Positions 1 through 34,445 of a stretch of 37,390 nt of DNA are shown here, one piece after another. The notes under the pieces are model-generated. The model made no database searches. It worked only from the letters and a program-made list of their open reading frames with translations, and was not told the DNA's origin. Numbering within the stretch: the stretch's first letter is position 1; each line of letters opens with the position of its first letter. The DNA comes from Pseudoroseomonas ludipueritiae (GTDB lineage Bacteria; Pseudomonadota; Alphaproteobacteria; Acetobacterales; Acetobacteraceae): NCBI RefSeq assembly GCF_014490445.1, contig NZ_JACTUZ010000029.1, positions 1 through 37,390 of the forward strand. Reading direction: 5' to 3'. The position numbers and the translations under genes are program-made.

Positions 1-986
1 CTCCGCTTCATGTTCCGCGCCGCCGCCTGCTGGCCGCAGGCGTCGCCCTCGCGGCGGCGCCACTCGCGCGCCCGGCGCTCGCCCAGGCAGCCTGGCCCAC
101 CGGCCGCGCCATTGAGATCGTGGTCGGCTTCGCGCCGGGCGGCGGCACCGACGTGATGCTGCGCGCCCTGGCGCAGGCTTTATCCACCGAGCTGCCAGGC
201 GCGAACTTCGTCATCAACAACAAGCCTGGCGCGGGTGGCGAGACCTCCTACGTCGCGCTGCAGTCGGCGCGGCCAGACGGCTACACCATTGGCAGCATCA
301 ATACGCCGGGCTACCTGTCCGTGCCGGTGGAGCGCCGCGTCCGCTACGACCGTGCCAGGATCCGTGCCATCGCCCGCCTTGTTGATGACCCGACGGCCTT
401 CGTGGTGCACCAGGAATCGCCCATCAAGTCGCTGGCCGACCTGGTCGCCGAGGCGAAGCGCCGCCCGGGCGAGATCAGCGTCGGTACCTCCGGCGTGGGC
501 ACGGACGATCATCTGGCGTTGACGCTCTTTCAGGCAGCCACGGGCACGGAATTCATCCACACGCCCTATGCCGGGGCGGGCCAAGTCAAGAACGCCGTGC
601 TGGCCAGGCATATCGACGTGGCCGGGCTGAACCTTGGCGAGATCGGCATGCTGGGCCAGGACAAGCCCGCGCTGCGGCCGCTGGCTGGCATGGGCGAGAA
701 GCGCTGGGACATGATGCCGGACGTGCCGACCTTCCGGGAGCTGGGATACGACGTGCTGATGACCAGCGAGCGCGGTATTGGCGCGCCGCGCGGCATTCCG
801 GACGAAGTAGCCCAACAACTCCAGGAGGCCGTCGCCCGTGTGGTGGCCAAGCCGGAATGGGCGGAGAAGGCGCGGCAGCTTGAATTGCCCATGGCTTACC
901 TGCCCGGTGCGGAGTGGGAAGCGCAGATGCCTGCCCAGGAAGCCCGCTACCGCCAGATCTGGGACAAGACGCCGTGGCAGCGCTGA
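1..986 (+). CDS. Bug-family (TctC-like) periplasmic substrate-binding protein, 5' end cut
   Basis: The reading frame is open from the window edge, so the start codon lies upstream. The first visible residues form a signal peptide: RRRLLAAG, an Ala/Leu-rich core, then ALAQ as the likely cleavage site near position 86, with a Tat-like arginine cluster. The mature part carries the family hallmarks: FAPGGGTDV shortly after the first strand, NKPGAGG, PDGYT, HTPYAGAG and a late PDVPTFRELGYD. Bug proteins bind small carboxylates or similar organic acids for tripartite tricarboxylate transporters and are often orphan receptors; no TctA or TctB gene is visible here. The stop at 984-986 lies 12 bases before a broken amidohydrolase, and a 2-hydroxyacid dehydrogenase follows, which suggests organic-acid catabolism. 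The ligand cannot be read from the sequence. Confidence 0.9.
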   Translation, partial: PLHVPRRRLLAAGVALAAAPLARPALAQAAWPTGRAIEIVVGFAPGGGTDVMLRALAQALSTELPGANFVINNKPGAGGETSYVALQSARPDGYTIGSINTPGYLSVPVERRVRYDRARIRAIARLVDDPTAFVVHQESPIKSLADLVAEAKRRPGEISVGTSGVGTDDHLALTLFQAATGTEFIHTPYAGAGQVKNAVLARHIDVAGLNLGEIGMLGQDKPALRPLAGMGEKRWDMMPDVPTFRELGYDVLMTSERGIGAPRGIPDEVAQQLQEAVARVVAKPEWAEKARQLELPMAYLPGAEWEAQMPAQEARYRQIWDKTPWQR

Positions 987-27832: not shown

Positions 27833-29002
27833 ATGCTGCGAGTCGCGACGCTGTCCACCCTGTTCCCCAACCGAGAACAGCCAAATTTTGGCGTCTTCGT
27901 AGAAGGCCAGACCTTGCGTCTAGCCGCTTGCGAGGATGTGGAACTGCGCGTGGTGAACCCGGTCGCCATGCCGCTCTTTCCGCTCAACCTGCTGGACCGC
28001 TATCGCCAGTTGCGTGACCTGCCCGAGGAGGAGGCCTGGAAAGGCGTCCCCGTTAGCCGGCCGCGCCTGCGAGTGCTGCCGGGGCTCAGCGGCCCCTTCA
28101 ACCCTTCCCTGCTCGTGCAGGCAGCGCGGCCGGTGCTGCAGCGATGGCGGGAGGAGGGCTTCGCCTTCGATGTGATCGACGCCCAGTTCTTCTATCCGGA
28201 TGGCCCCGCGGCGGCGCAGCTGGCGGCTGAATTCGGCGTGCCTTACTCCATCAAGGCCAGAGGGGCGGATATCCACTACTGGGGCCGCGTGCCCGGCTGC
28301 CGGCCGCAGATCCTGCGGGCCGCCGCCCAGGCCAAGGGCATGCTTGCCGTGGCGCAGTCGCTGCGGCGGGATATGGTCGCCATGGGCATGGATCCGGCGC
28401 GGATCGCCGTCCACTACACCGGTGTGGACCTGGAGCGTTTCCGGCCACATGACCGTGCTGCAGCCAAGGCAAAGCTCGGCATTCAGGGGCCGTTGATCAT
28501 CAGCCTGGGCGCGCTGATCCCGCGCAAGGGGCATGACATCGTCATCAGGGCCCTGAGGGAGATCGAGGGCGCGACGCTGATGGTGGCGGGCGAAGGGCCG
28601 GAGGAAACGCGGCTGGCTGCCCTGGCGCGGAAGATGGGGCTGGAGGAGCGGGTGCGGTTGCTCGGGGGTGTGCCGCACAAGGAGCTGCCGGCGCTGCTCT
28701 CGGCCGCCGATGTCATGGCCCTGGCCTCGGAAAGCGAAGGGCTCGCCAATGCCTGGATCGAGGCCATGGCCTGCGGCACGCCGGTGGTGACGCCAGAGGT
28801 GGACGGCGCGGCGGAGGCGGTGGACCGCCCTGCTGCCGGGCGCCTGCTGCGGGAACGCACCCCTGCCGCCTTTGCCGCCGCCATCCGCGCCATCCTGGCC
28901 GAGCCGCCCCCGCCCGAGGCGGTGCGTGCCAGCGCCGAACGCTTCGCCTGGGAGCGCAACACGCAGCAACTGCGCCAGCACCTGACGGCACTGGTGCGTT
29001 AA
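27833..29002 (+). CDS. GT4-family glycosyltransferase
   Basis: A 389-residue GT-B fold glycosyltransferase. The N-terminal acceptor domain starts VATLSTLFPNREQPNFGVFV, carries FDVIDAQFFYPDGPAAAQLA and the loop IKARGADIHYWG. The C-terminal donor domain (GT1/GT4) has LGALIPRKGHDIVI, LLGGVPHKELPALLSAADVM and the nucleotide-sugar motif ESEGLANAWIEAMACGTPVV with its EX7E acids. It transfers a sugar to a growing glycan at the cytoplasmic side. It converges on an asparagine-synthase-type gene. Such pairs occur in exopolysaccharide clusters linked to exosortase/PEP-CTERM systems, which fits the PEP-CTERM gene nearby. Donor and acceptor are unknown. Confidence 0.92.
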   Translation: MLRVATLSTLFPNREQPNFGVFVEGQTLRLAACEDVELRVVNPVAMPLFPLNLLDRYRQLRDLPEEEAWKGVPVSRPRLRVLPGLSGPFNPSLLVQAARPVLQRWREEGFAFDVIDAQFFYPDGPAAAQLAAEFGVPYSIKARGADIHYWGRVPGCRPQILRAAAQAKGMLAVAQSLRRDMVAMGMDPARIAVHYTGVDLERFRPHDRAAAKAKLGIQGPLIISLGALIPRKGHDIVIRALREIEGATLMVAGEGPEETRLAALARKMGLEERVRLLGGVPHKELPALLSAADVMALASESEGLANAWIEAMACGTPVVTPEVDGAAEAVDRPAAGRLLRERTPAAFAAAIRAILAEPPPPEAVRASAERFAWERNTQQLRQHLTALVR

Positions 29003-29079: not shown

Positions 29080-31038
29080 TCAGGCAGCCACAAGAGGGGA
29101 GCGCGCGGCCTCCACCGATTGCATCGCCTCGTGCCAGGCCTGGAACATCAGGATATTCCAGATCACCCGGTTCCAGCCGCGGCCATGCTGGGTGAAGCCC
29201 TCCCACAACCGGCGGCAGGCGGCGACATTCAGCAAGCCATGGCGGCCCAGCGCCTCGGGGCTCATCAGGGCTTCCGCCCAGTCGCGCAACTCGTTCTGCA
29301 GCCAGACTTCCACCGGGGCGCCGAAGCCCATCTTGGGCCGGTCCACCAACGCCTGCGGCACATGGCGGTAGAGCAGCGAGCGCAGCGGCAGCTTGCCGAC
29401 CCCGTCGCGGCACTTGGCGTCCGTCGGGAAGCGCCAGGATAGCTCGATCACGCGGTAGTCCAGCAGCGGGCAGCGCACCTCCAGCGAGGTGGACATGCTG
29501 GCGCGGTCCACCTTGGCCAGGATGTCGTCGACCAGATAGGAGGCCGTGTCGATGAAGGTCATGCGGTCGATGGCGGAGGAGCGGCCGAGGTTGAAGGTGC
29601 CATCGGTCAGTGGCCGGCTCGCATCGCCACCCCCGGCCAGCAGGGCGCCGGGGTCGAGCGATTGCGACACCAGCATCTCGTGCACCCGGTCCGGGTCACC
29701 ATGGTCGAGCAGGCTGCCGAGCAGCAGGAAGCGGCGCTCCATGCGCGTGCCGCTGACCCGCCCGACAGGCCCGGCGAGGCTGTTCACCAGCGTGCTGGCC
29801 AGGCTGCGCCCGAAGCCCGGCAGCTTGGCGCGGTGCGACAGCCAGCGGTCAATGGCCGCATAGCGCGCATAGCCGGCAAAAAGCTCATCGCCCCCATCGC
29901 CGGAAAGCGCCACCGTCACGCTCCTGCGCGCCATGCGGCAGAGGAGCGTGGTGGGGATCATGGAATCATCGGCGAAGGGCTCGTCGAGGATGCCGGGCAG
30001 GTCCTTCACCACGCCGATCAGATCGGCCGGGGTGACATAGAGTTCCTCATGCTGCGTGCCGAGATGGCTGGCGACGCTCTGGGCGTGCTCGGCCTCGTTC
30101 CATTCCTTCACGGCGAAGCCAATGGAAAAGCTGCGCACCTGACTGGCGGAGCCGGCCGCCATGACCGCCGTGACCAGCGAGGAATCGATGCCGCCGGACA
30201 GGAAGGCCCCCACCGGCACATCGGCCACCATGCGGCGCGCCACGGCATCGCGCAGCACCGCATCGAGTTCTTCCTCCGTCGCGGTCTGGCCGCTGGCCTG
30301 CGCATCCAGCCCGGCCAGGGCCACCTGCCGCAGGTCCCAGTAGGGCCGCGGCCGCGGCATCTGCCGCCGGCGCACCGCCTGGCGGTCCAGCCGCAGCAAC
30401 GCGCCGCCCGGCAGCTTGAAGGTGGAGGCGAAGATGGTCCGCTCGCCCGGCACGTAGCCCAGCTGCAGGAACTCGTTCAGCGCCTCGGGCGAAATGCCGA
30501 AGTCGAACTGCGGGAAAGGCCAGAGCGCCTTGAGCTCCGAGCCGAAGACAAAGGCATCGCCAGCCCAGCCATAGTAAAGCGGCTTCTTGCCGATGCGGTC
30601 GCGGGCCAGGGTCAGCACCTGCTCCTCGCGGTCCCAGACCGCGAAGGCGAACATGCCATTGGCGCGGCGGATGGCCTCCTCCACGCCCCAGCAGGCGATG
30701 GCCTCGGCCATGACCTCGGTGTCCGAATGGCCGCGCCAGGCAAGCGGCCCGCGCACGGCTTCGACCTCGGCCCGGATATCGGCGAAGTTGTAGACCTCGC
30801 CATTCATCATGACGATGTAGCGCCCATCGGCCGAGGGCATCGGCTGGTGTCCGGCGGGCGAGAGGTCGATGATCGAGAGGCGGCGGAAGCCAAAGGCTAT
30901 GCCGGCCGGGTCCGTCCAGCTGCCGCCGTCATCGGGCCCGCGATGCACCAGCCGGTCCCGCATCCGGACGACGAGGTCATGCGCCTGCCGCCCATCGGCC
31001 AGGCCGTCGGGAGTGAAGAAGCCAACAATCCCGCACAT
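29080..31038 (-). CDS. asnB: Asparagine synthase (glutamine-hydrolysing)-type amidotransferase
   Basis: A 652-residue AsnB-family enzyme. The start must be the ATG at 31038 because the class II glutaminase needs Cys2 exposed (MCGIVGFF); AGAGGAG lies upstream. The glutaminase domain has HRGPDDGG, RRLSIIDLS, MNGEVYN and GHSDTEV. The synthetase domain has the PPi loop SGGIDSS at 281-287, LSGDGGDELFAGY and DRASMSTSLEVRCPLLD. It makes an amide from glutamine nitrogen and an ATP-activated acid. It may be plain asparagine synthase, or the closely related exosortase A-associated amidotransferase of exopolysaccharide clusters. The divergent PEP-CTERM gene and neighbouring GT4 enzyme favour the latter; sequence alone does not decide. 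Confidence 0.88.
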   Translation of the reverse strand: MCGIVGFFTPDGLADGRQAHDLVVRMRDRLVHRGPDDGGSWTDPAGIAFGFRRLSIIDLSPAGHQPMPSADGRYIVMMNGEVYNFADIRAEVEAVRGPLAWRGHSDTEVMAEAIACWGVEEAIRRANGMFAFAVWDREEQVLTLARDRIGKKPLYYGWAGDAFVFGSELKALWPFPQFDFGISPEALNEFLQLGYVPGERTIFASTFKLPGGALLRLDRQAVRRRQMPRPRPYWDLRQVALAGLDAQASGQTATEEELDAVLRDAVARRMVADVPVGAFLSGGIDSSLVTAVMAAGSASQVRSFSIGFAVKEWNEAEHAQSVASHLGTQHEELYVTPADLIGVVKDLPGILDEPFADDSMIPTTLLCRMARRSVTVALSGDGGDELFAGYARYAAIDRWLSHRAKLPGFGRSLASTLVNSLAGPVGRVSGTRMERRFLLLGSLLDHGDPDRVHEMLVSQSLDPGALLAGGGDASRPLTDGTFNLGRSSAIDRMTFIDTASYLVDDILAKVDRASMSTSLEVRCPLLDYRVIELSWRFPTDAKCRDGVGKLPLRSLLYRHVPQALVDRPKMGFGAPVEVWLQNELRDWAEALMSPEALGRHGLLNVAACRRLWEGFTQHGRGWNRVIWNILMFQAWHEAMQSVEAARSPLVAA

Positions 31039-31120
31039 ATAAGCATGCTCCTCTGCCAGACAGAACTGCCACAAGGCACCACAGAGATCCCTGTGACCTT
31101 CAATTCATCACGCTATGGCA

Positions 31121-31136
31121 GGCTTCTATAGTGCCA
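31121..31136 (-). promoter_or_regulatory. Candidate sigma-54 promoter facing asnB
   Basis: On the minus strand TGGCAC-T-ATAG-AAGCC has the -24 element TGGCAC intact and the GC of the -12 element at the required 12-base distance from GG. The -12 context is AAGCC rather than TTGCW, so it is weaker than the plus-strand promoter nearby. Transcription would begin near 31110, giving a leader of about 70 bases. Confidence 0.4.
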
Positions 31137-31175
31137 TGTCATGTCACGGCCCGGGCCGGGCAGGCAACGAGATTG

Positions 31176-31194
31176 CAGCATAACAAAGACGTTA
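31176..31194. repeat. 19-bp repeat, copy 1: candidate enhancer-binding-protein site
   Basis: CAGCATAACAAAGACGTTA matches the second copy (31270-31288) at 17 of 19 positions in the same orientation. It also contains the inverted repeat ATAAC-N6-GTTAT. It lies about 225 bases upstream of the predicted sigma-54 start for the PEP-CTERM gene, and about 65-85 bases upstream of the asnB one. Confidence 0.55.
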
Positions 31195-31269
31195 TTTCTA
31201 CTACCTCATTCTTAATGAACGCCACAACATTTTTACATGAAATCTGCCATTCCAGCGCAACCATGATGA

Positions 31270-31288
31270 CAGCATAACAAAAACTTTA
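31270..31288. repeat. 19-bp repeat, copy 2: candidate enhancer-binding-protein site
   Basis: CAGCATAACAAAAACTTTA is the second copy of the repeat at 31176-31194, spaced 94 bases from it, about nine helical turns. It lies about 115-130 bases upstream of the predicted PEP-CTERM transcription start, a standard upstream-activating-sequence distance for sigma-54 activators. Confidence 0.55.
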
Positions 31289-31374
31289 CAGTTCAGCTTC
31301 CGCTATCTGTCGGAATTTTTGACAGGCACGTTTGCATGGAAATCCAACAAGTTGAAATCCAAGCATTTTTTCTG

Positions 31375-31390
31375 CGGCACGGTGTTTGCT
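31375..31390 (+). promoter_or_regulatory. Sigma-54 promoter of the PEP-CTERM gene
   Basis: CGGCACG-GTGT-TTGCT matches the RpoN consensus TGGCACG-N4-TTGCW at every position but the first, with the obligatory 12-base distance between GG (31376) and GC (31388). Transcription should start near 31401, giving a leader of about 49 bases with AAAGGA before the ATG at 31450. PEP-CTERM genes are known in several bacteria to depend on RpoN with the PrsK/PrsR two-component system. Confidence 0.8.
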
Positions 31391-31449
31391 CCCTGGGGGC
31401 GAGGCTTCCCATCCGGGCAGCCTGGCACTTCCAGACAAAGGACGTCGAA

Positions 31450-32085
31450 ATGCGGAACTTCAAGTCGCTGGTTCTCGGAACGGCTCTTGCGATCGCCACC
31501 AGCGCCTCGGCCATGGCAGCCCCCATCACCGGCAGCTTCGACATCACCGGCCTCTTCCAGGCCGAGAACAGCGCCGGCGTGAATGTCGCTTTCACTCAGG
31601 CCTCCGCCATCGACTTCTGCGCCAGCCCGACTGGCCCCTGCGCGACCGATGCCGGTGCCGGCACCGGTACCGGCACCTTCCAGGTCAACAATGCCTCCAC
31701 CGACAACACCTTCGGTATCACCGATGGCCAGGTGGGCGTGGTGAAGGACTTCAGCTTCAGCCCCTTCAGCACCGTCAACGACTTCCTGAAGATCGGCGAC
31801 CTGACCTTCGACCTGCAGCAGATCGAGAATTCCTCCTTCAGCGCCGGCAATTTCCAGTTCCTGGTGCTGACCGGCACCGGCATGTTCAGCCGCGAAGGCT
31901 ATGACGACACCGCCGGCACCTTCAGCTTCACCGGCCAGACCAACGGCATCGACACCAGCGGCACCTTCACCTTCAGCGGCGCCGCCGCCGCCGTGCCGGT
32001 GCCCGAGCCCGCCTCGCTGGCGCTGTTCAGCGCCGGCCTGCTGGGCCTGGGCCTGGCGCGCCGCAACCGCCGCAAGGCGGCCTGA
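31450..32085 (+). CDS. PEP-CTERM sorting domain protein
   Basis: A 211-residue secreted protein from the ATG at 31450, with AAAGGA 7 bases upstream; the longer open frame starting at 31336 lies before the predicted transcription start. The signal peptide is MRNFKSLVLGTALAIATSASAMA. The middle is Thr/Ser/Gly/Phe-rich, with few Lys or Arg, and has one close CASPTGPCAT cysteine pair that may form a disulphide. The C-terminus is a textbook PEP-CTERM tag: VPEPASL, a hydrophobic helix (ALFSAGLLGLGLA) and a basic end RRNRRKAA. Exosortase would cleave at this tag and pass the protein to the surface or polysaccharide matrix. No exosortase gene is in the window. It has its own sigma-54 promoter and strong hairpins after the stop. 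Confidence 0.92.
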   Translation: MRNFKSLVLGTALAIATSASAMAAPITGSFDITGLFQAENSAGVNVAFTQASAIDFCASPTGPCATDAGAGTGTGTFQVNNASTDNTFGITDGQVGVVKDFSFSPFSTVNDFLKIGDLTFDLQQIENSSFSAGNFQFLVLTGTGMFSREGYDDTAGTFSFTGQTNGIDTSGTFTFSGAAAAVPVPEPASLALFSAGLLGLGLARRNRRKAA

Positions 32086-32093
32086 CGGGCAGC

Positions 32094-32138
32094 CTGTCAG
32101 CTTCCCTGACAGCGGGAGCAGCCTTCGGGCTGCTCCCG
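32094..32138 (+). terminator. Tandem terminator hairpins after the PEP-CTERM gene
   Basis: CTGTCAG-cttcc-CTGACAG (32094-32112) is followed at once by an 11-bp perfect stem, CGGGAGCAGCC with its complement, closed by a TTCG tetraloop (32113-32138). A small GGCGG-CTTTT-CCGCC hairpin follows near 32144-32158. The stable UUCG loop and position make termination of the PEP-CTERM transcript likely. Confidence 0.7.
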
Positions 32139-32220
32139 CCACAGGCGGCTTTTCCGCCGCACCCTTTCGCCCACTGGATTCAGGACCACCTTCCTGGCCT
32201 GCTGCTGGTCAGGAGCCTTG

Positions 32221-33114
32221 ATGTCCCATCCCTTCCGTTTCCTGGTGGCCGAGAGCGAGGCACCGGAAAGCCGTGACCTGCGCCGCGAGAGCGTCGGCCG
32301 CAGTTCCGGCGAAACCTATGTCCATACCCTGCGGCAACTCGCCCCCGGCGCCCTTTGCGACCAATTGAAGCCCGCCGAGGAAGACGGGCCGGAACAACAG
32401 CCCGAGGGCCTGCGCCAGTACGACGCCGTCTTCCTCTGCGGCTCGCCCATGCATGTCTATGAGGACAGCCCCAAGGTGCGCCGGCTGCTGCGCTTCATGC
32501 GGGCCGTCTTCGCTTCCGGCACGCCCGCCTTCGGCTCCTGCGCTGGGCTTCAGGTCGCGGTGGCCGCGGCGGGGGGCAAGGTGCGCCCCCGGCGCCATGG
32601 GCAGGAGGCCGGATTCGCGCGGCGCATCGTCCCCACGGCGGCCGGCGCGCGGCACCCGCTGCTGGCCGGCCGCCCCGCCAGCTTCGACGCCATCGCCATT
32701 CATTCCGACGAGGTGGAGGAACTGCCGTCAGGCGCGACCCTGCTGGCCGGCAACAGCGACACGCAGGTCCAGGCGGCGGAGATCCGCTGTGGCGGCGGCC
32801 TCTTCTGGGGCGTGCAGTACCATCCGGAACTGGCGCTGGACGAAGTCGGGCCAGCCCTGCGGCGGCAAGCGGGCTCGCTGGTGGAAAACGGCCTGGCGCT
32901 GGACGAGGTGGCGGTGGAAGCCTTCGCCACCCGGGTGGATGCCCTGGCCCATGATCCGACACGGCGCGACCTCGCCTGGCAACTGGGCCTGGACGCCCAG
33001 GTCACGGACGCGCGCCTGCGGCAGTTGGAGCTGCGCAACTTCATCCGCCACCTGGCCGAGCCCCGAAGGGCGGCGCGCTGCCGGGCGGCTGCCGGCATGC
33101 CCTCGCCGGCCTGA
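32221..33114 (+). CDS. Class I glutamine amidotransferase (GMP-synthase-like)
   Basis: A 297-residue protein with a class I glutaminase fold. YDAVFLCGSPMHVYED opens the active-site region, the nucleophile Cys107 sits in FGSCAGLQVAV, and the His/Glu pair is His201 and Glu203 in WGVQYHPELAL. The first 60 residues are a lead-in, and about 90 C-terminal residues form helices outside the core. Stand-alone members of this group act on unidentified substrates; some cleave gamma-glutamyl bonds. The ATG at 32221 has AGGAG 5 bases upstream; a TTG directly before it is less likely. The gene stands after the PEP-CTERM terminators and converges on a GGDEF gene 13 bases away. A link to exopolysaccharide synthesis is possible but unproven. 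Confidence 0.85.
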   Translation: MSHPFRFLVAESEAPESRDLRRESVGRSSGETYVHTLRQLAPGALCDQLKPAEEDGPEQQPEGLRQYDAVFLCGSPMHVYEDSPKVRRLLRFMRAVFASGTPAFGSCAGLQVAVAAAGGKVRPRRHGQEAGFARRIVPTAAGARHPLLAGRPASFDAIAIHSDEVEELPSGATLLAGNSDTQVQAAEIRCGGGLFWGVQYHPELALDEVGPALRRQAGSLVENGLALDEVAVEAFATRVDALAHDPTRRDLAWQLGLDAQVTDARLRQLELRNFIRHLAEPRRAARCRAAAGMPSPA

Positions 33115-33127
33115 GGCCGCCACAGCC

Positions 33128-34132
33128 TCAGGCGGATTGATAGGCGCGGTGCAGCACCTGATTCTTGCCGCTCATCTTCGCGCCATACATCAGGGCATCG
33201 GCGGCGCCGACGGCCTTGTCCACGCTGGGCGGCGCGACATGGAAGGAAGCGGCGCCCACCGAGGCGGTGACGGCCCAGTTCCTCGCCACCATGCCCGCCG
33301 CCAGCGCATCCCGGATCCGCTCCGCCATGGCCGGGGCCTCCGCCGGGTCGCTGTTCAGCACCACGGCGAATTCATCGCCGCCCAGGCGCGCGGCGACATC
33401 CTGGTCCGAAATCACGCCATTCAGGATGGAGGCGACCTCCCGCAGCACGGCATCCCCGGCGGCATGACCTTCGCGGTCATTCACCGCCTTGAAGCCGTCG
33501 AGGTCGAGATACAGCAGGGTGAAGCCCGTGCCGCCCTGCTGCTGCAACGTGATGGCCGCGTCCACGGCATCGAAGAGGGCGGAGCGATTGGCGAGGCCAG
33601 TCAGCGCATCCACGAGCGCCAGGCGGCGAACCTGCGCCATCACCCGCCGCAACTCCAGCGTGGTCATCACGGTATCGGCCAGCCGCGCCAGGATCTGCCG
33701 CTGGTTCTCGGTGAACTGCCGCGGCTCGCGGTCCAGGACGCAGAGCGTGCCCAGGGCGGCGCCATCCCGGTTCACCAGCGGCGCGCCGGCATAGAAGCGG
33801 ATATCCGGCTCGCCCAGAACCAGGGGATTATCGGCGAAGCGCGAATCGACGCGCGTATCCGGCACCACCGTCACCTCGCCCGGCTCCAGGATGGCCCAGG
33901 CGCAGAAGGACTGCTCACGTGGCACTTCCACCACCGGCAGCCCCTTGCGGGCCTTGAACCACTGCCGTTCGGCGTCGGTGAGGGAGACAAAGGAGATCGG
34001 GCTGTCGGTGAGCTGCGCGGCAAGCTCGGCGATGTTGTCGAAGGTGGTTTCGCAGGCCGTGTCCAGGATCTCGTAGGACCGCAGGGCCGCGAGGCGTTCT
34101 GCCTCGGTGACAGGAAGGGGAGCAGAGGGCAC
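33128..34132 (-). CDS. GAF-GGDEF diguanylate cyclase
   Basis: A 334-residue protein from the GTG at 34132 (GGAG 8 bases upstream); the open frame reaches 34186 but the extra residues do not look coding. Residues 10-165 form a GAF sensor domain (ERLAALRSYEILDT, FDNIAELAAQLTDSPISFVS, FYAGAPLVNRDGAALGTLCV). A short helix leads to the GGDEF domain: VDALTGLANR at 174-183, LLYLDLDGFKAVND, and the intact GGDEF at 251-255. The position of the inhibitory RxxD site five residues earlier reads SDQD, so product inhibition through the canonical I-site is not expected. It should make cyclic di-GMP in response to a small ligand or light/redox input. No membrane segment is visible. Confidence 0.9.
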   Translation of the reverse strand: MPSAPLPVTEAERLAALRSYEILDTACETTFDNIAELAAQLTDSPISFVSLTDAERQWFKARKGLPVVEVPREQSFCAWAILEPGEVTVVPDTRVDSRFADNPLVLGEPDIRFYAGAPLVNRDGAALGTLCVLDREPRQFTENQRQILARLADTVMTTLELRRVMAQVRRLALVDALTGLANRSALFDAVDAAITLQQQGGTGFTLLYLDLDGFKAVNDREGHAAGDAVLREVASILNGVISDQDVAARLGGDEFAVVLNSDPAEAPAMAERIRDALAAGMVARNWAVTASVGAASFHVAPPSVDKAVGAADALMYGAKMSGKNQVLHRAYQSA

Positions 34133-34445
34133 GGAACAGGCTCCAGCATTCTGACAACAGCATAGGAACTGGGGTTTCGCCGCCATTTTTCGAGATATGC
34201 AAATCGGGAATCAACCAGGGGTTTGGTAGGCTTTTGCAAGGCACCGGTTGGCCTGCCGGATGGGCGCGGCTTCCCGTCGCGTTGTTCACCGCAAGCCTCT
34301 GGACCTATAGAGCGGCAAGGCATCACGGACCGCCGCCTTGCCCCGGCCGTTCCGCTCCCCCTTCCGCTGTCGGCGGAGCGGCATGGCGGGCGCGCCGCAT
34401 CGGGGCCGGAGGCCGCCGCGGCAGTTATGGAGCGAGGGGATCGCG

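Follow-up and report, generated by a model that had tools for sequence, protein, structure and literature searches.

The question raised by this locus is whether a sigma-54-like sequence, CGGCACGGTGTTTGCT (CGGCACG-GTGT-TTGCT) at positions 31375-31390 of the forward strand, is a promoter for the PEP-CTERM gene just downstream of it and, if so, to which control circuit it belongs. The window, i.e. the whole stretch of DNA analyzed, comprises 37,390 nucleotides from Pseudoroseomonas ludipueritiae (contig NZ_JACTUZ010000029.1). PrsR/RpoN control of PEP-CTERM genes is already known, and the promoter in the window adds to that known system. As set out in the part of Haft et al. 2006 drawn on here (PMC1569441), 99 of 167 proteobacterial PEP-CTERM genes are preceded by a 17-nt motif with TTTACA at its end, then by a spacer (mean 62.8 nt, SD 10.6) and then by a sigma-54 motif, with GG at -24 and GC at -12; Rhodospirillum rubrum, an alphaproteobacterium, is among the proteobacteria concerned. 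The genes are single ones behind large intergenic regions, the end of the sigma-54 motif is on average 71 nt from the start codon, and PrsR was proposed there as the activator of the two-part element.

The gene and the 16-mer before it

The gene at issue (31450-32085, forward strand) encodes 211 aa with a signal peptide-like start, a PEP motif, a transmembrane (TM) segment and an RR tail, and its product exceeds the cut-offs of both PF07589 (28.6 bits, cut-off 20.7) and TIGR02595 (24.7 bits, cut-off 16). ATG 31450 is likely its start; a longer open reading frame from 31336 was ruled out, as that ATG has a Shine-Dalgarno-like AAAGGA, read directly at 31437-31442 on the same strand, together with the signal peptide-like start of the product. 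The product scores below the equivalog cut-off of the floc_PepA model NF033554 (33.6 bits, cut-off 80) and below that of the THxN family model (45, cut-off 85). Divergent from it is asnB (29080-31038, reverse strand; TIGR01536 445.7 bits, cut-off 267.1), followed by a GT4 gene (27833-29002, forward strand). A GAF-GGDEF diguanylate cyclase gene (33128-34186, reverse strand) lies two genes downstream of the PEP-CTERM gene. The closest relatives of the latter that were found are at two loci, 91% and 83% identical, of Pseudoroseomonas wenyumeiae, now Teichococcus wenyumeiae, of the order Acetobacterales. An earlier note, made from the letters of the window, had described a PEP-CTERM gene downstream of the motif, with asnB and GT4 neighbors, in a likely acetobacterial genome, and all of this holds.

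The same note had rated the motif near-perfect, one outer base off consensus and with exact GG-to-GC spacing. Direct reading bears this out: against TGGCACG-N4-TTGCW there is a mismatch at one of 12 defined positions, the outer C for T, with GG at 31376-31377, GC at 31388-31389 and 10 nt between. The match itself is real, but taken by itself such a motif could readily arise by chance. Nowhere else in the window is there a match with fewer than two mismatches; if two are allowed, there are five matches, the shuffle mean being 8.47, and with GG and GC fixed and at most one mismatch allowed, the single match of the window compares with at least one in 40.5% of 200 first-order Markov windows. A whole-genome scan with NGGCACGNNNNTTGCW yields four matches, as does the reversed control pattern. 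As the window and genome counts are at chance level, significance of the 16-mer on its own was dropped, and the evidence has to be sought in its two-part context. Where the genome matches lie is far above chance, three of the four (C335, C329, C212) being immediately 5′ of PEP-CTERM genes and the fourth (C57) within a 425-aa open reading frame that by eye is MFS transporter-like. Were the match accidental and the PEP-CTERM gene driven by a promoter of another type, a 16-mer of this quality would be expected about this often; a simple consensus scan of 31030-32250 for sigma-70-like sites, which counts only weakly against this, found none.

A two-part element before PEP-CTERM genes

The second part is a PrsR-type enhancer box (Haft motif 1), TGTCGGAATTTTTGACA at 31308-31324 on the forward strand, whose dyad, TGTC-N9-GACA, is 51 nt upstream of the sigma-54 GG and whose model score of 22.8 is the best of the region. 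Its full TGTC/GACA arms would fit a dimer with a Fis-type helix-turn-helix. A possible second, weaker box (31274-31292, forward strand; score 9.2) contains TTTACA at 31285-31290, 85 nt 5′ of GG, and the box at equal distance (85) in a P. wenyumeiae orthologue (L006) scores 12.2. As a candidate for the main box the TTTACA at 31285 was set aside, being second to the gap-51 dyad (9.2 vs 22.8).

For assessment of the two parts together, a set of 100 two-part sites was assembled from PrsR-positive genomes of the family (108 sites listed of 125 counted). A PEP-CTERM open reading frame, recognized by regular expression, is downstream in 77 of the 100, and of the remaining 23 at least five resemble PEP-CTERM variants by eye (L145, L172, L179, L194, L204). 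The 77 PEP-CTERM-linked sites, which come from 31 genomes outside the genus under study, served to train the two-part model, in which out-of-phase gaps cost 6 bits. With it, the site in the window scores 41.6, the runner-up in the window 10.7, and the best of 11 control stretches of the same genome (215,251 bases) 12.0. The genome scan proposed in the earlier note, extended in this way to both parts, detects the element at all ten of the PEP-CTERM genes above cut-off in this genome, with scores from 23.9 to 47.1; an eleventh, sub-cutoff PEP-CTERM match scores -13.4. The two P. wenyumeiae loci score 34.4 and 32.0, and among 24 PEP-CTERM loci of genus-mates (24 of the 58 matches outside the genome itself) 21 score above 22 and three at or below 22. 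When the upstream regions of the gene in the window, of its paralogue on C329 and of both P. wenyumeiae loci are aligned, strong conservation across all four is confined to the box core and GGCACG-N4-TTGC, the element being retained between species where the surroundings diverge. With this conservation, the presence at ten of ten genes and 41.6 set against 12.0 in controls, the accidental reading becomes very improbable indeed. Motif, genome scan, four-region alignment and two-part model together make it very probable that 31375-31390 on the forward strand is a genuine sigma-54 promoter, of -24/-12 type, belonging to the known surface-protein control circuit. From sigma-54 numbering, transcription is predicted to start at 31401 on that strand, 12 nt past the C of -12.

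Aquincola tertiaricarbonis, in which a related promoter has been analyzed, is a betaproteobacterium. The portion of that work used here (PMC9850573) describes pepA of strain RN12 as a PEP-CTERM gene with GG/GC motifs, a start determined by primer extension, lowered transcription in an rpoN1 mutant and an upstream enhancer sequence. The locus in the window is alike in having a PEP-CTERM gene behind GG/GC motifs with an upstream enhancer sequence; unlike pepA, its protein is no PepA equivalog, and its promoter is deduced from sequence alone. The parallel with floc-forming bacteria drawn in the earlier note is supported for the control element; the product scores below the floc-protein model. Compared with what the consulted part of Haft et al. 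reports (PMC1569441), the dimensions are similar, with a 51-nt spacer, 59 nt from the 3′ end of the sigma-54 site to the ATG, and a 411-nt intergenic region flanked by the asnB and PEP-CTERM starts. Differences are that the box here ends TTGACA, which gives the full TGTC/GACA dyad, that the spacer is quantized in helical turns, and that a subset of sites has an IHF-like element; in the text of that paper, ihf, integration host factor and phase are absent, and the one instance of ‘helical’ is in the title of a cited work.

RpoN, PrsR and a probable gap in the assembly

The genome encodes RpoN (PF04552 228.2 bits, cut-off 22.8; C366), and the possibility that it lacked rpoN, which the earlier note had named as counting against its proposal, falls away. 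With PrsR the picture is less direct, none exceeding the cut-off in the assembly (best TIGR02915 358.6 bits, cut-off 502.6); prsK is also absent from the assembly, and prsK DNA of G107, a genome of the same genus, gave no match there. The full enhancer-binding proteins in the assembly (PF00158) are three, NtrC, NtrX and one encoded beside dctA, with four more PF00158 matches in the genome being weak (22-29 bits). Several candidates for PrsR itself were rejected. The enhancer-binding protein on C290 has 339.4 bits for TIGR02915 (below 502.6) and its gene adjoins those for a histidine kinase and the DctA transporter; the pair on C336 are instead NtrC (637.8, cut-off 558.6) and NtrX (689.1, cut-off 600); and the match to the PrsR C-terminus on C121 is in a 331-aa protein that lacks an AAA+ match, beside an open reading frame that by eye is aldehyde dehydrogenase-like.

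A real sigma-54 promoter driven by the assembled NtrC, NtrX or DctD-like regulator, with PrsR lost, would accord with these three being the only full enhancer-binding proteins in the assembly and with the lack of a PrsR above cut-off. The ends of two contigs point elsewhere. Contig C27 ends inside prsT, leaving a 298-aa piece (158.7 bits, profile positions 630-897 of 899), and the end of C224 falls within the tyrosine-kinase gene of the XrtA operon. In G107 the order is prsT, prsR, prsK, epsB2, an export protein gene, a chain-length protein gene and then the gene matching the C224 end, and the stretch missing between the two contig ends spans about 9.6 kb. Because relatives carry prsR-prsK exactly between the genes at the ends of C27 and C224, their absence is probably due to a gap in the assembly, and by synteny prsR would lie in the part of this genome that was left unassembled. 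Loss of PrsR from the lineage was set aside for the same reason, prsT persisting at a contig end just where relatives hold prsR-prsK. Absence of prsR from a draft genome need not equal absence from the organism. In addition, relatives that encode PrsR have the same box with equally high scores, and no PEP-CTERM genes turn up in genus-mates that lack the prs block, so that control by NtrC, NtrX or a DctD-like protein is unlikely.

PEP-CTERM genes occur in six of 17 genomes of the genus, namely the one under study, G107, G200, G205, G206 and G212. The prsT-prsR-prsK block is present in G107, G200, G205 and G206, and G212 shows prsT and the prsR 3′ end only. G209 (71% complete) has prsR DNA, yet no PEP-CTERM match; the remaining ten have short matches only to the prs block and no PEP-CTERM genes. 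In the family, PrsR is above cut-off in 50 of 200 genomes, and the two-part pattern is found in 43 of these 50 (no match in the other seven) vs 32 of the 150 other genomes (Fisher 2.9e-16, relatedness ignored). The 200 genomes together hold 172 matches to the pattern and 20 to its reversed control. A strict-pattern scan of the phylum gave ten matches in seven of 398 genomes, two of them from the genome under study, with gaps of 44, 44, 54, 62, 63, 63, 63, 63, 64 and 65.

With rpoN and the two-part element in place, and prsR itself placed by synteny, the RpoN and PrsK/PrsR logic suggested in the earlier note is supported, and we assign 31375-31390 with high confidence to the PrsK/PrsR regulon, as the -24/-12 promoter of a unit of one gene. 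The presumed processing enzyme is also encoded: the XrtA exosortase (TIGR03109 291.3 bits, cut-off 208) is on C224, where stp1, femAB and polysaccharide deacetylase of the XrtA locus also exceed their cut-offs. On the opposite strand beside the exosortase A gene (C224; L030:6962-10755) are genes for a BarA-like hybrid histidine kinase and a PleD-like receiver-GGDEF protein, a pair that may possibly be a c-di-GMP input beside the XrtA locus.

Spacing between box and promoter

Helical phasing of activator sites is known from other systems. With the gap defined as the distance from TTTACR to GGCAYG, and the pattern search allowing 40-70, the 108 listed sites (of 125) in PrsR-positive genomes have gaps of 42-43 (n=8), 51-54 (n=33) and 61-65 (n=65), with two at 59/60; the helical-turn classes therewith hold 106 of the 108 listed. 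Drawing a single site from each of 34 genomes gives a vector strength of 0.85 at 10.5 nt, vs a mean of 0.15 and a maximum of 0.44 in 2000 uniform draws. The 42 listed sites of other genomes have a wider gap spread, with 18 at 62-63. On a rescan over the range 15-179 with the phase penalty removed, the best-box gaps of the ten genes of the genome under study were 63, 42, 63, 61, 51, 63, 51, 64, 62 and 62, and of the 21 genus-mate loci scoring above 22, 20 are in phase at gaps 42-72 and one is off-phase at a gap of 25 (L099). The PEP-CTERM genes of the window and of C329 (L023) are paralogous, each resembling one of the two P. wenyumeiae loci, and the gap is kept per orthologous pair, 63 for C329 and 51 for the window.

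Within the spacer of the window, at 31345-31357 on the forward strand, CAACAAGTTGAAA is an IHF-like element with AAN4TTGA at offset -30 from GG, and agrees at 12 of 13 positions with YAANNNNTTGATW. We take YAANNNNTTGATW to be the reverse of the IHF consensus. In 57 sites of gap 62-64, AA is at -31/-30 (86%, 77%) and TTGA[AT]T-like letters are at -25 to -20. Of 100 spacers, 25 contain AAN4TTGAW, against a mean of 1.0 and at most 5 in shuffles and a mean of 2.1 and at most 8 in the Markov control; it is at -31 in 17 of them and at -21 in five, and the 25 are spread over 14 of 34 genomes. AAN4TTGA is at -31 or -30 at four of the ten PEP-CTERM genes of the genome under study. In G342 and G561, other alphaproteobacteria, TTAACCATC replaces the IHF-like element in three of three listed sites (L215, L216, L222); it resembles a CtrA half-site.

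The spacer TTGA element may, with the PrsR/sigma-54 promoter as above, be no IHF site but an intrinsic bend, a contact for the polymerase alpha subunit or a second contact for PrsR, a substantial if lesser possibility. This would sit well with its occurrence in 25 of the 100 sites only and in two of 31 in the gap class of the window (51-54), and with opposite-orientation matches at ten of 100 sites, eight of these at -19/-18. Favoring IHF are the AA-N4-TTGAWT spacing, which is exact IHF half-site geometry, the locking of position (-31 in 17 cases) and the encoding of IHF-alpha in the genome (TIGR00987 125.3 bits, cut-off 120.25; C62), IHF-alpha being above cut-off here and in eight of nine genomes searched. 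In the part of the Desulfovibrio orp work consulted (PMC3897727), the sigma-54 promoters of the operons depend on an enhancer, and IHF is placed between the two. The order of enhancer, bend and promoter, and an NtrC-family activator, are alike here, with IHF putative, whereas the enhancer distance is shorter and the regulon is devoted to PEP-CTERM proteins. Neither helical phasing for the PrsR regulon nor IHF in PEP-CTERM promoters was found stated in the literature searched, to which subscription papers are mostly external.

A scheme consistent with the above is that the kinase PrsK would phosphorylate PrsR, an NtrC-family activator, which would bind the dyad at 31308-31324, perhaps aided by the second box around 31285. 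Between dyad and promoter the DNA would bend, probably through IHF at 31345-31357, allowing PrsR on the right helix face to contact RNA polymerase-sigma-54 at 31375-31390 and, with ATP, to bring about opening; transcription would begin near 31401, with the PEP-CTERM product exported and then processed by XrtA. Refinements beyond the known system are, from sequence comparison, the helical-turn gap classes and the fixed-offset IHF-like element, which suggest that box and promoter are spaced in whole helix turns, often with a DNA-bending site between. The balance tips slightly towards a broader proposal, with the PrsR dyad always on one helix face, at 4, 5, 6 or occasionally 7 turns from the sigma-54 site, a fixed-offset IHF bend in part of the promoters, evolution by whole turns gained or lost, and a gap-43 class that would drive TM-RR proteins devoid of PEP and possibly new substrates. 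At six of seven gap-43 sites there is no PEP-CTERM open reading frame by regular expression. Downstream of four (L119, L138, L140, L141) are proteins of 96-130 aa with signal peptide-like starts, a C-terminal TM segment and an RR tail, the PEP motif being absent; two short non-PEP proteins scanned had no NCBIfam match at E ≤ 1.

If the phasing holds, PEP-CTERM promoters would be a natural experiment on enhancer distance vs sigma-54 promoter strength, and the enhancer-face model of sigma-54 activation becomes testable over many natural spacings. As a rule, phasing may also make such promoters findable despite degeneracy of both box and promoter. For the organism, PrsR/RpoN control of exosortase substrates would extend to a sequenced Acetobacterales genome. 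All of the confirmed PEP-CTERM genes there would share this switch, so that a single deletion could probe the complete set of surface proteins.
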